DNA from: Oscillospiraceae bacterium
GTDB taxonomy: Bacteria; Bacillota; Clostridia; Oscillospirales; Acutalibacteraceae
Assembly (NCBI GenBank): GCA_902780565.1
Contig: CACZGD010000021.1
Location: 1-37,795 of the forward strand
DNA length: 37,795 nt
Direction: 5' to 3'
The first letter of the stretch is position 1; every line of letters starts with the position of its first letter. The position numbers were made by a program, and so were the translations under genes. Under the pieces are notes generated by a model. That model had not been told where the DNA came from. It searched no databases and was given only the letters and a program-made list of their open reading frames with translations. Shown piece after piece: positions 3,913-10,608 of this stretch.

Positions 3913-4901
3913 GTTCAAAAGCAAAAATCATCATTGCTTCCTGCGCAGGCGCCGCGCTGCTAATCGGCCTGATCATTGCTGCGTGTATGCCGGTTACGAT
4001 CAAGGTCAGCATTCCGCAGCTTGAGAATCTGGCACAGCCGACAACTCCGGATCGTGCAGTACCGGTGGATACAGTTGTCGAACCCGCTTCATCTCTACCC
4101 GCCGCAACACAACCCGCTGGGACACAGCCTGCCGCAACACAACCCGCGGCAACACAACCCGCCGCGACGCAGCCCGCGGTGACACAGCCTGCCGCAACAC
4201 AACCCGCTGCGACGCAACCCGCCGCGACGCAGCCCGCCGCCGCGACGCAGCCCGCGGTGACACAGCCTGCAAACGGTGCGCTGTCAAAGAACGAGATCGT
4301 ATCGCTTTACAATACCGCAGTCAATAAAGTGAAAAAGGAAGCGTCGAATCTGACCAGGAACTACAAGCACGTATCCGCGCCGGAGGATCAGCTTGAGCTG
4401 CCGTCCGCGATCCAGGGGCTCGGCAAGACAGCCATCGGCACCTTTGTCAAAGGGACGGACACGCCGGAATCCTGGACAAGCAAAGAGGATATGCAGATCG
4501 TGTTTCCCGTGGGCGGCACGGACTATTCCTCCCATCTGACGGCGGATATGGTGGAAGCTGCCTCCTGCGAGGATACCGGCGGCAGCTATAAGATCACGCT
4601 GAAGCTGTACGACGACAAGCTTACCAGTCCCGCCAAGGGAGAGGGGTACGCGGGCGTCTTCAACACCACCACCGCCTCCACCTTTACGGAGATAAACATC
4701 CCCACCGTCACCTTCAACCGCTTCGATATCAACGGCGTGAACGGCTCCATCACCTGCACGATCGATAAGGAGTCGCAGCGCGTCACAGAGATCACCTTTG
4801 CGAATACGGATATCCTGAAGCTGGAGGTCAAGGTCGTTGTCGCCACGCTGAATGTAAAGCTGGCGCTGGCGGTGGAAGAAAACTATTCGATCGCGTATTG
4901 A
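3909..4901 (+). CDS. secreted or lipid-anchored TQPA-repeat protein
   Basis: 330 residues from the ATG at 3909, chosen because AAGGAG lies just upstream and the ATG overlaps the rhamnosidase stop; the open frame further 5' lies inside the rhamnosidase. The N-terminus is a signal or anchor helix (KAKIIIASCAGAALLIGLII) ending in IAAC, which fits a lipobox, so it may be a lipoprotein with Cys26 as the anchor. Residues about 67-122 are eleven TQPA(A/V/G) repeats, a likely wall-spanning spacer. The remaining 200 or so residues form a beta-rich domain that I do not recognise. As the third gene of the rhamnoside operon it may bind substrate at the surface. That role is inferred; the sequence gives only the architecture. 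Confidence 0.75.
   Translation: MSSKAKIIIASCAGAALLIGLIIAACMPVTIKVSIPQLENLAQPTTPDRAVPVDTVVEPASSLPAATQPAGTQPAATQPAATQPAATQPAVTQPAATQPAATQPAATQPAAATQPAVTQPANGALSKNEIVSLYNTAVNKVKKEASNLTRNYKHVSAPEDQLELPSAIQGLGKTAIGTFVKGTDTPESWTSKEDMQIVFPVGGTDYSSHLTADMVEAASCEDTGGSYKITLKLYDDKLTSPAKGEGYAGVFNTTTASTFTEINIPTVTFNRFDINGVNGSITCTIDKESQRVTEITFANTDILKLEVKVVVATLNVKLALAVEENYSIAY
4107..4274 (+). repeat. 15-base tandem repeat encoding TQPA(A)
   Basis: Eleven consecutive units of about 15 bases, one with an extra alanine codon. They vary at third positions (acacaacccgcc, acgcagcccgcg and similar) but keep Thr-Gln-Pro-Ala. The synonymous drift shows selection on the peptide rather than a fresh duplication. Copy number is likely to vary between strains by slippage. 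Confidence 0.9.
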
Positions 4902-7487: not shown

Positions 7488-7532
7488 AACGAGAAAAAGA
7501 TATAATTCTTTTTTTCCATTTCACTAGTTTGC

Positions 7533-7573
7533 ACTGCTCAATTACCATTCAATGGGAACTGAGCAGTTTTTTC
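7533..7573 (+). terminator. intrinsic terminator of the rhamnoside operon
   Basis: Perfect 8-base arms ACTGCTCA and TGAGCAGT enclose an inner CCATT/AATGG hairpin and run straight into six T residues. It lies 46 bases after the SDR stop. Confidence 0.85.
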
Positions 7574-7859
7574 TGTACACTGTTCGCCCTTCAGTCCATG
7601 CGTCACGCTTTTGTGTCGTGATTTTAAGCATCGGGAACGCCTAAATATCAACATGTTTATTCTCAAAGATCGACTCGGCAATGATAATACATTCCTTGAT
7701 TTGAATCAACACCGAAAACCCGCGCAGAATAAGGGGTTTTGGCTTCCAAAAGCGTGACAAAAAACACGACGAATGTTTGCCTGTCGAACAAGGATACTTA
7801 CCGACAAAGAAAAACAACATGACAACAAAAATGTTTTCAAAAGAATCCACTAAAAATAG
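7574..7859. other. AT-rich intergenic stretch without a supported gene
   Basis: Composition drops sharply below the neighbouring genes. A 74-codon frame on the minus strand (7641-7865) has no ribosome site and a hydrophobic, low-complexity start; only its last 20 residues (QIKECIIIAESIFENKHVDI) look protein-like, possibly a decayed gene end. No RNA gene was recognised. Confidence 0.5.
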
Positions 7860-7888
7860 TTGCAATTATATTGAGCTTATGGTATACT
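7860..7888 (+). promoter_or_regulatory. sigma-A promoter of the hicB remnant
   Basis: TTGCAA at 7860-7865, a 17-base spacer, and TATACT at 7883-7888, with the hicB-like ATG 20 bases further on behind an AGGAG ribosome site. The promoter looks intact although the gene is broken. Confidence 0.75.
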
Positions 7889-7907
7889 TGTTTTCAGAAC
7901 AGGAGTG

Positions 7908-8160
7908 ATGGCTATCAGAAACACGATGGAATACAAAAGCTACGTCGGCAGCGTAGAGTTTTCCGAGGAAGATTCGCTGTTTTTCGGCAAAGTTTTGGGC
8001 ATCCGTGCGCTCGTTTCCTATGAAGGTGAGAACGCGCATGATCTTGTAGAAGATTTTCACGGCGCATAAGGCCGCCGTGATCGCCGCCCTGCGCGATCAG
8101 ACATCACTCAACAGCTTCGTGGAAAACGCAATCGCAAACGCCGTAGGCGCGGCGGGATAA
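7908..8160 (+). pseudogene. HicB-type antitoxin remnant, internally deleted and frameshifted
   Basis: From the ATG at 7908 (AGGAG just upstream) the frame encodes 53 residues beginning MAIRNTMEYKSYVGSVEFSE and ending LVEDFHGA-stop at 8069. This matches the N-terminal half of HicB-family antitoxins (partial RNase H-like fold). In the next frame, from 8068, KAAVIAALRDQTSLNSFVEN and a further ten residues run to a stop at 8160; this is the C-terminal ribbon-helix-helix end of the same family. The middle (about 40 residues of an expected 105-115) is missing and the join is out of frame. No hicA toxin is seen nearby. The short N-terminal peptide could still be made from the intact promoter. Confidence 0.8.
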
Positions 8161-8910
8161 GTAATATACACCGTTCCCGGTGGCAACATTTTGGCAACAA
8201 AAAATCGGATAGTCCAAATTCTTCGGATAATACGGGTAATCCAGATAGCTTGTGTAAAATCCCCTAAACAAAATTGTTTAAAATCAGATTTGCAGGAGCG
8301 AGTGGGAATAAAGCCGCCGTCCGGGGACAAAACTCCTGAGCGTCAAACCGACACTTTTGATGAGGTGCGCAACCTGATGCGCTGAGGCTCCCAGATCGGC
8401 ATAAACAAAACAAACCTTGTGGCTGCAGAAACGCTGCAGTTACAAGGCTTTTTCTATGTCCTGACGCCTTGACGAAACCAAGTATCGACCAATACGCCAG
8501 TTCCTTCAGCTCCTGCAGCGGATCGAGCCGGTCCAGCTTCCTGCAAGAGATCAAAAACCGCGGCAAATTCAGCCGCCGTATGGATCCGTGTGAACGCGCC
8601 GAGTATAAAAAGCGTTTTCCCGGCGCCGCTGCAATCAATGCCGTCGGGCAGGCGAGCATCACAGCCTGTGACAAACAGACTGAGCCGCAAAAGCATCCAG
8701 AAATAACCGATCCATCTGCCGATGAACACGCACAGTACGCCTTCCCGCCTGGCGCAGCGGCGGATCATACGCATAGAAGCGCCAGCCGCCCGCAGCTGCG
8801 CGTACTCGGCCGCGTTTGACGTGATATCAAAGCATAGCTGTGAAGGACAAGCGGCTATAGGCGTTCTATTTGTCGATAGGCGATATCCCGGGATGTTCAC
8901 AGAAAAACAG
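8161..8910. other. gene-poor 750-base stretch, possible remnant region
   Basis: No gene is convincingly supported. TGGCAACA occurs twice with an 11-base period (8181-8188, 8192-8199). A terminator sits at 8415-8453 with no clear gene before it. A 148-codon minus frame (8454-8900, GTG start) contains stretches that look protein-like, such as SGAGKTLFILGAFTRIHTAA, but has no ribosome site and overlaps an equally long plus frame. It may be a decayed gene of a lost mobile segment. I cannot assign a function. Confidence 0.4.
8415..8453 (+). terminator. orphan intrinsic terminator
   Basis: Hairpin CCTTGT-GG-CTGCAG, loop AAACG, CTGCAG-TT-ACAAGG, then C and five T. No recognised gene precedes it within 250 bases except the hicB remnant and a 64-codon frame (8191-8385) without a ribosome site. 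It may have ended the intact ancestor of this region. Confidence 0.6.
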
Positions 8911-9033
8911 TCCGCCCGGCCTTGCCGCGAAACAGAAGAGACGACGCGGAAAAGCCGGGCGGAAGATGATTTTTCCGCCGCCGTTTCGTCCGGTTGAAAG
9001 CTACAAAGACCTCACGGCGGCAAGAAAAGATCA
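8911..9033. repeat. structured tandem element, unit 1 (hairpins A1 and B1)
   Basis: Hairpin A1: ten-base arms TCCGCCCGGC (8911-8920) and GCCGGGCGGA (8954-8963), a 4x4 internal loop, then CCGCG/CGCGG around a 15-base loop. Hairpin B1: GCCGCCGT (8977-8984) pairs with ACGGCGGC (9014-9021), and the stem continues with U-rich/A-rich pairs outward. The B1 loop holds TTGAAAGCTACAAAGACC (8994-9011), which recurs exactly in unit 2. On the minus strand A1 is followed by five T (8905-8909), so transcription could also run leftwards. It matches no riboswitch or ncRNA consensus I remember. Transcription and strand are not shown. Confidence 0.55.
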
Positions 9034-9051
9034 CACATGGGAAGCTGCCGA

Positions 9052-9178
9052 TCCCCCGGCCCCGCCGTGAAGAAAGGACTTTCACGGCAGAGCCGGATGG
9101 AAAATGATCATTCCTCCCCTGCCCCGGTTTATTGTGTTGAAAGCTACAAAGACCACACGGCAGGGAAGGAAAAATCAC
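9052..9178. repeat. structured tandem element, unit 2 (hairpins A2 and B2)
   Basis: Same order as unit 1. A2 has CCGGC/GCCGG outside and GCCGTGAA/TTCACGGC inside (9056-9096). B2 pairs CCCTGCC (9117-9123) with GGCAGGG (9159-9165), continuing through TTCC/GGAA outward. The loop copy TTGAAAGCTACAAAGACC (9137-9154) is identical to unit 1, offset 143 bases. Stem bases differ between units while pairing is kept, as expected of a selected structure. The shared 18 bases fall in different reading frames of the minus strand, so protein coding does not explain the match. The next gene on the plus strand is the sigma factor. Confidence 0.55.
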
Positions 9179-9385
9179 GCAACAAAACGCAGTGTGTCGG
9201 AACTGCGCATCTGCTCTATTAATATCGGAAAACGCAGTATTTGTGACATCAATTTTAAAAAAATGAAAAAGAAACCTTTATTTCCGGGTGCGGATATGAT
9301 ATATTGGAGTCCGGCAAGAATATTCTGATATTTCCGGTCACAAAACACGCAGAAAAACAGATTCATGTATTGAGAGGTCTCACTG

Positions 9386-9934
9386 ATGATATCTTTCTAT
9401 CTCTCCCTGATTGAAACCGAAGCGGATAAATCGCTGTTCGAGCGAGTCTATGAAGCGCATCGGCAGAATATGTTCAAATACGCAATGAAATTTCTGCATG
9501 ACGAAGGGAACGCCGAGGACGTTGTGCACGAGGTTTTTCTGGCGATCGTCAAATCCGGCGTCGGGAAGATCCGCGGCGTGGACGAGGAGGGAAATCTGTG
9601 GGTCTATCTGGCGACCGCCGTGCGCAATCAGTGCATCACCTTTATGAAAAAGCAGCGAAACGTGCAGCTCATTGAGCCGGGGGTGAACGAATTTTTCGGC
9701 AGTCTTCACACCGGGGACAGCACGGCGCAGGACGCGTCCTATGCCAGCCTGGTCCGAACGATCCGCGAGCTGGACCCGATCTATGCCGACGTTTTGTATT
9801 ACGATTTGGTGCAGGAGATGCCCTCCGACGCCATCGCCAACCTGCTGGGACTCAAGCCTGCGACCGTGCGCAAGCGGATCTCACGCGGGAAGGAATTGCT
9901 CCGCGAAAAACTGGGAAAGGATTACTTTGCTTGA
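9386..9934 (+). CDS. ECF-like RNA polymerase sigma factor
   Basis: 182 residues, usual length for an ECF sigma factor. Region 2 lies at about residues 18-90, with NAEDVVHEVFLAIV for core binding and LWVYLATAVRNQCITFMKKQ for -10 recognition. Region 4 at about 122-178 has the helix-turn-helix EMPSDAIANLLGLKPATVRK. The ATG at 9386 is preceded by GAGAGG at 8 bases. It directs RNA polymerase to a small set of promoters. The TTG start of the DUF4367 gene overlaps its stop, the usual place for a membrane regulator of the sigma factor. A possible promoter, GAAACC at 9271 and a TATGATATATT box at 9295, lies upstream, but I cannot tell whether it is sigma-A or self-recognised. Confidence 0.88.
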   Translation: MISFYLSLIETEADKSLFERVYEAHRQNMFKYAMKFLHDEGNAEDVVHEVFLAIVKSGVGKIRGVDEEGNLWVYLATAVRNQCITFMKKQRNVQLIEPGVNEFFGSLHTGDSTAQDASYASLVRTIRELDPIYADVLYYDLVQEMPSDAIANLLGLKPATVRKRISRGKELLREKLGKDYFA

Positions 9935-10608
9935 ATTACTCTAAAGAACAGCTTTCACGCGCATTGATTGAAGTACTGAGCGAACGGGTTCCGGCGCTTT
10001 CCGACGTGCCGGATCACGTCTTTTCGCCGCGCTTTGAACGGAAAATGGACAGGTTGATCGCCCGGGAAGCGGCGCATTTGAAGCCGGTGCGCCATACGCT
10101 GCGGAAGAGTCTGATCGCGGCGGTGATCGTGATCCTTCTGCTGTTTGCCCTGTGCATGAGCGTCAGCGCGGTACGGGAGGCGATCTTTGATTTCTTCCTG
10201 CGGCATTTTGACGATCACGACGACGTAGTGTTTGAGATCTCCGAAGAAAAGGATCATATCGAAACGGAATATGTGATCACAGACCTGCCGGAGGGATTCA
10301 CATTGGCTCAGAAAAATAGTTTGCCACATCTCATCATATGGGATTATAAAAACAAAAACGGTGATTGCATTTCTTTTTCGCAGTATACGGCAGATTCCAG
10401 CACTTTCAACGCTATCGACAATGAACGCGGACAAAGCCGCGAGATCGAGATCGACGGACAAAGCATGCTTTTATATGAGAGTCAGAAATATCTCCTCCTT
10501 TTCTGGGATTTTGAGGGATATCTCTTCAAGCTTGAAATATTCGGGAAAGCCGACTTCTCAAAGGATGGAATATGCAAAATAGTCAGATCCATTCAGCCAA
10601 TTACTTAA
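9931..10608 (+). CDS. DUF4367-type membrane protein, putative anti-sigma factor
   Basis: 225 residues from TTG at 9931, overlapping the sigma gene stop; AAAGGA lies at 10-15 bases. Residues 1-50 are a charged cytoplasmic part, one membrane helix spans about 55-75 (KSLIAAVIVILLLFALCM), and the extracellular part (VITDLPEGFTLAQ ... YLFKLEIFGKADFSKDGICK) follows the DUF4367 pattern. This family is commonly encoded next to ECF sigma genes, and the overlap supports an anti-sigma or signal-sensing role. No zinc anti-sigma motif is visible in the N-terminus. The 3' half is markedly AT-richer than the 5' half. Family call likely, role inferred. Confidence 0.75.
   Translation: MNYSKEQLSRALIEVLSERVPALSDVPDHVFSPRFERKMDRLIAREAAHLKPVRHTLRKSLIAAVIVILLLFALCMSVSAVREAIFDFFLRHFDDHDDVVFEISEEKDHIETEYVITDLPEGFTLAQKNSLPHLIIWDYKNKNGDCISFSQYTADSSTFNAIDNERGQSREIEIDGQSMLLYESQKYLLLFWDFEGYLFKLEIFGKADFSKDGICKIVRSIQPIT

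Follow-up and report, generated by a model that had tools for sequence, protein, structure and literature searches.

RNAs of the CsrB/RsmY type titrate a protein through repeated hairpin loops that carry GGA. Tandem riboswitches, such as those for glycine, place two similar structured units in succession. The LhrC RNAs of Listeria are repeated structured RNAs with redundant, single-stranded, pyrimidine-rich binding sites, made as separate transcripts with proven targets (PMC4132741). Long palindromic stems in intergenic DNA are found in REP/BIME elements and in palindromic candidates from gut metagenomes; in one survey the latter comprise 250 of 3161 candidate RNAs, many of them contain terminators, and large surveys list candidates by the thousand (PMC8040213).

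Here we describe an element at 8911-9178 of an Oscillospiraceae contig (CACZGD010000021.1, forward strand), analyzed as a stretch of 37,795 nucleotides that we call the window. Its repeated hairpin loops of one sequence could bind one protein, as in the CsrB/RsmY type, but its conserved loops number two instead of many and lack GGA. It shares repeated structure and redundant single-stranded pyrimidine-rich sites with LhrC, whereas its two units lie in one stretch and are known from sequence. Two similar structured units in tandem also recall riboswitches; unlike those, the element matches no aptamer family, and downstream of it on its better strand there is no regulated gene. From REP/BIME elements and the metagenomic palindromes it differs in its occurrence at one genome locus, its conserved loop and a bias of G-U pairs to one strand. 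We regard it as a structured candidate from a single genome, real but unproven.

Two hairpin pairs with one shared loop

The element consists of unit 1 (8911-9034) and unit 2 (9052-9178), each with a hairpin A and a hairpin B. Read along the minus strand, the hairpins run B2-A2-B1-A1, followed by CUG and then by U5 at 8907-8903:

9104-9178, minus strand: hairpin B2, first on this strand; about 19-20 pairs with verified arms, carrying the conserved loop
9137-9154, minus strand: invariant loop copy 2, an exact match; minus-strand RNA GGUCUUUGUAGCUUUCAA
9052-9101, minus strand: hairpin A2; about 20 pairs in the stem, with an unconserved loop
8966-9034, minus strand: hairpin B1, carrying the conserved loop
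8994-9011, minus strand: invariant loop copy 1, an exact match, within the conserved block 8993-9015
8911-8963, minus strand: hairpin A1, last on this strand; 18 pairs over 19 positions, a possible terminator stem
8903-8907, minus strand: U5 run three bases past A1; candidate intrinsic terminator tail, predicted from the sequence

Alignment of the units gives 89 identical columns of 125, with 10 gap columns and a longest shared run of 19, inside which the B loop GGUCUUUGUAGCUUUCAA is the same in both. The surrounding conserved block at copy 2 (9136-9158) reads GTGNGGTCTTTGTAGCTTTCAAC. A direct repeat of the loop region (8993-9018 and 9136-9161; 96% over 26 nt) has a spacing of 143, and an inverted repeat (8911-8929/8945-8963, 89% complementary) corresponds to hairpin A1. 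A preliminary description of this DNA had proposed tandem two-hairpin units offset by 143 bases, an identical B loop and copies of the 18-mer in different frames. The repeats, the alignment and the folding of all four hairpins bear out the first of these, the exact 18-mer at 8994-9011 and 9137-9154 the second, and a remainder of 2 when 143 is divided by 3 the third. Compared with the divergence it saw in the B stems, the 3' arm differs more (15/23 identical, in minus-strand columns) and the 5' arm less (18/21).

Stable folds and G-U pairs point to the minus strand

Both units fold to lower energies on the minus strand (-66.2 and -72.2 kcal/mol) than on the plus strand (-55.2 and -57.8), and so do the four hairpins: B2 (9103-9180), -35.7 vs -30.7; A2 (9048-9102), -36.5 vs -27.1; B1 (8967-9036), -28.4 vs -23.4; and A1, -36.5 vs -31.7. 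For both units and both strands, all 200 dinucleotide-preserving shuffles folded less well than the native sequence (minus, z scores of -6.40 and -7.88; plus, -4.73 and -6.15). Stable folds are common across this window, so the raw stability of the element is not exceptional: the best two 130-nt windows over it rank 10th and 15th of 3768 (1884 positions, both strands). The window's most stable minus-strand folds lie at 4121-4290, where the plus-strand frame reads repeated ATQPA/TQPA in a 413-aa protein.

In a common structural register for both units, the stems contain nine G-U cells on the minus strand and no A.C cells, which would be G-U on plus. Two of the G-U positions are common to both units, leaving about seven independent cases, for which a two-sided sign test on our own count gives about 0.016; a mutational strand bias could also underlie this pattern. 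The U5 after A1 occurs on minus only. Fold energy, G-U placement and the U run past A1 thus make the minus strand the one from which the element is best read. The preliminary description had left the strand open, citing a T-run for minus and the next intact gene for plus; fold energies and G-U cells side with the former, and the weaker plus-strand folds count against the latter. Hairpin A1 with its U5 is absent from our terminator scan, whose loop limit was 8 bases.

Compensatory changes and a kept loop

On a structural alignment whose register was made by hand and fitted to the structure, with four gapped positions dropped, 4 of 35 gap-free pairs carry double compensatory changes (null 0.00026). 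Two of these, in hairpin A, are independent of the hand alignment. A MAFFT alignment keeps the register in hairpin A only and yields two double changes (null 0.12), together with unusually many kept pairs in that hairpin (0.007). On the plain alignment, covariation was not significant by the tool's shuffles (120/500 for A, 258/500 for A and B together). Because its significance depends on the hand-made register, we consider the covariation suggestive rather than established. The earlier argument that diverged yet paired stems point to selection is weakened accordingly, although the stems do pair in both units. Where a conserved RNA class would show homologues together with covariation, the element offers covariation between its own two copies, on the structural alignment only.

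Loop identity is 19/20 in hairpin B and 5/13 in hairpin A (Fisher 0.0007), and this contrast is a better sign than the covariation that the B loop matters. Given 71% overall identity, an invariant run of this kind has permutation p values of 0.020 and 0.031 under uniform divergence and is by itself no more than a modest surprise.

The main competing explanation is a non-functional tandem palindrome, descended from an old duplication of two hairpins, in which template switching (quasipalindrome correction) instead of selection maintains the complementarity of the arms, and the identical loop reflects coincidence or local gene conversion. Template switching in replication is able to create and mend stems and to produce compensatory changes (PMC8794818). 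The insignificance of the plain-alignment covariation fits such an origin, as do loop-block p values of only 0.02-0.03, the orphan status of the element in our genus, family, order and phylum samples, and the HicB and FtsX permease fragments to its left. Arm-to-arm copying, however, gives Watson-Crick pairs and not nine G-U cells on one strand, and it leaves the kept B loop beside an unkept A loop unexplained. We give this explanation as a whole serious weight, while doubting it. If the element is transcribed, its conserved loop and free stem set two predictions apart: selection on pairing predicts G-U pairs on one strand, whereas template-switch repair predicts Watson-Crick pairs only.

Searches for relatives of the element

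The preliminary description knew of no riboswitch or ncRNA consensus that fits, and Rfam agreed at both thresholds used: the window gave 0 matches, and 8860-9390 at E up to 10 gave 12, the best at E 0.32 and all far under the gathering score. A tRNA/tmRNA scan found none. In the genome of origin, the 18-mer at up to three mismatches occurs in both element copies and at one unrelated place, and blastn of the element returned its self-match alone at E 0.001. REP/BIME elements and MITEs have many dispersed copies in a genome; the element was found at one locus, which disfavors, at the sensitivity used, the REP/MITE-like origin previously named as the main alternative.

We found no convincing homologue in samples of 26 genomes from the genus, 398 from the family, 394 from the order and 398 from the phylum, which overlap and each count the element's own genome. 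Absence from relatives, set beforehand in the preliminary description as grounds for rejecting a structured element, is thus what the sampled genomes gave. With blastn at E up to 10, the 26 genus genomes yielded pieces of about 15-40 bases only, and nine such loci, when folded, contained no such two-hairpin unit. Searches over 40 genomes used stricter filters, at which weak matches are lost.

We also built a covariance-type search model, R1, from the two sequences and an RNAalifold structure; a model of this construction would not detect a homologue whose loop differs. It returned three weak places in the genus sample (E 0.12-0.30), two in the family sample (E 0.004 and 0.009), eight in the order sample (E from 2.4e-4 to 0.016, including one already met) and, in the phylum sample at E 0.001, the element itself alone. 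One place was rejected as coding, lying inside a 447-aa frame that we take to be trigger factor. Three were a single homologous place in one genus's gene, presumably polymerase-like, and were also discarded. The match at E 2.4e-4 is a plain GC hairpin that has no B loop and borders on a 334-aa frame, so that it may or may not be coding; others were set aside for long frames or for matching hairpin A only. One further R1 place (L072) was examined by alignment.

Among 72,556 records of plasmids and 50,697 of phages, none matched the element. Searched as text, the 18-mer had no match in the literature, a search that did not extend to the 3161 candidates of PMC8040213. With no relative found to carry it, the element is for now a one-genome curiosity.

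Near copies of the loop lie in reading frames

At up to two mismatches, the 18-mer occurs at 24 places outside its own genome among 98 relatives, against 4 for a reversed control. In the folds examined, no long stem encloses any of the 24, and 23 fall within a frame of 100 aa or more. Since nearly all lie in long frames, the excess over the control is most simply that of a codon word. Exact copies were present in 7 stretches of a species-genome collection (chance estimate about 7.5) and 8 viral ones, each of the 15 within a frame no shorter than 100 aa. A longer loop pattern gave 0 matches in viral contigs; at up to three mismatches in the 398 family genomes it gave 7 places outside the own genome (control, 3), with longest frames of 150-569 aa.

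One may therefore ask whether the 18-mer is an ordinary codon word in the window too (xESYKDx on plus), the units being the remains of a coding repeat. Elsewhere, of 39 places where the 18-mer or a close variant occurs, 38 fall within frames of 100 aa or longer, mostly with an ESYKD-like reading. The window copies, however, stand in different frames and in unlike surroundings, the frames over the element have no family match, and the stems would be left unexplained. We consider the coding reading nearly refuted in this window and, among the explanations weighed here, highly improbable.

A possible minus-strand RNA

Our tentative preference, held at somewhat short of an even chance, is that the element is a lineage-specific structured RNA from the minus strand that presents one loop twice. 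It builds on features observed in the window, namely the anatomy, the conservation of the loop and the minus-strand bias of wobble pairs. The RNA would be about 280 nt or more in length and would end at hairpin A1 and U5, an old tandem duplication of the two-hairpin unit having placed two units in one molecule. Each B hairpin would display the same unpaired sequence, GGUCUUUGUAGCUUUCAA, on stems that may serve as a scaffold, free to change while pairing persists. Action in trans seems likely, with two equal loops binding one partner, either a protein or a complement in target mRNAs. Scanning for promoters revealed no minus-strand site upstream of the element, and pairing of the loop to the 27 gene starts of the window gave no outstanding target (best z -2.18 against shuffled loops).

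The stronger proposal is a previously undescribed lineage-specific tandem RNA whose two scaffold hairpins show an 18-22 base loop, GUGNGGUCUUUGUAGCUUUCAAC, to one partner, under selection on structure and loop since the old duplication; we rate this as unlikely, though worth stating. If transcribed, the element would be a clean small test case, a single molecule that contains an RNA module in two diverged copies. Otherwise it illustrates how a stretch in decay can mimic an RNA gene.

Gene debris around the element

Between 7490 and 9385 there is no recognizable intact gene. The start of a HicB-like antitoxin lies at 7875-8069 (PHROG 9151, E 9.8e-14). A genus relative (G005, contig 58) matches on both sides of a point near 8065 but has some 93 additional bases there, and the window copy accordingly looks shortened. 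At 8492-8819 on minus, 67-68% DNA identity connects the window to three places in two other genus relatives (G018 and G020), which we read as an FtsX-type permease beside ABC-transporter genes; in the window this frame is broken, and Pfam FtsX reaches E 0.035, below the cut-off. That the element lies in a decayed stretch among gene debris counts against a minus-strand RNA.

Such a setting might also contain what is left of a mobile element, either a piece of it or one of its control elements, for instance hairpins at an origin or end that act as single-stranded DNA. The flanking fragments recur in part in relatives, other stretches of the flank match two fecal phage records at 72-73%, and the genus genomes examined lack the element. 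Yet the plasmid and phage records hold no match to the element itself, the scanned frames of 7490-9385 include no transposase or Rep, and the one-strand G-U bias points to RNA. We think this origin improbable.

Downstream on plus are an ECF sigma factor at 9386 and a DUF4367 protein at 9931, likely a sigma/anti-sigma pair (9386-10608), the pairing being our inference. As the element ends 208 bases before the sigma factor start, it could be a tandem riboswitch or attenuator in the leader of a neighbor, either of this gene or on minus. Plus-strand folds are weaker, however, no Rfam family matches, and the sequence upstream of the two nearest genus sigma orthologues (52% and 48% identity) shows no such element by eye. 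On minus the next thing is the broken FtsX-type permease fragment, which makes a cis-acting leader unlikely there. A tandem riboswitch leads an intact gene on its own strand; here a broken fragment follows on minus and the folds weaken on plus, so the riboswitch analogy drawn earlier gains no support, and we judge a cis-acting leader very improbable.

Other hairpins occur nearby. A strong plus-strand terminator-like hairpin with 14 pairs and a T-run is found at 8415-8447; beside it, 8181-8318 resembles pieces found in other genomes of the genus, and two of these pieces lie at contig ends. A small terminator-like hairpin on minus, at 9187-9208, lies just before unit 2.
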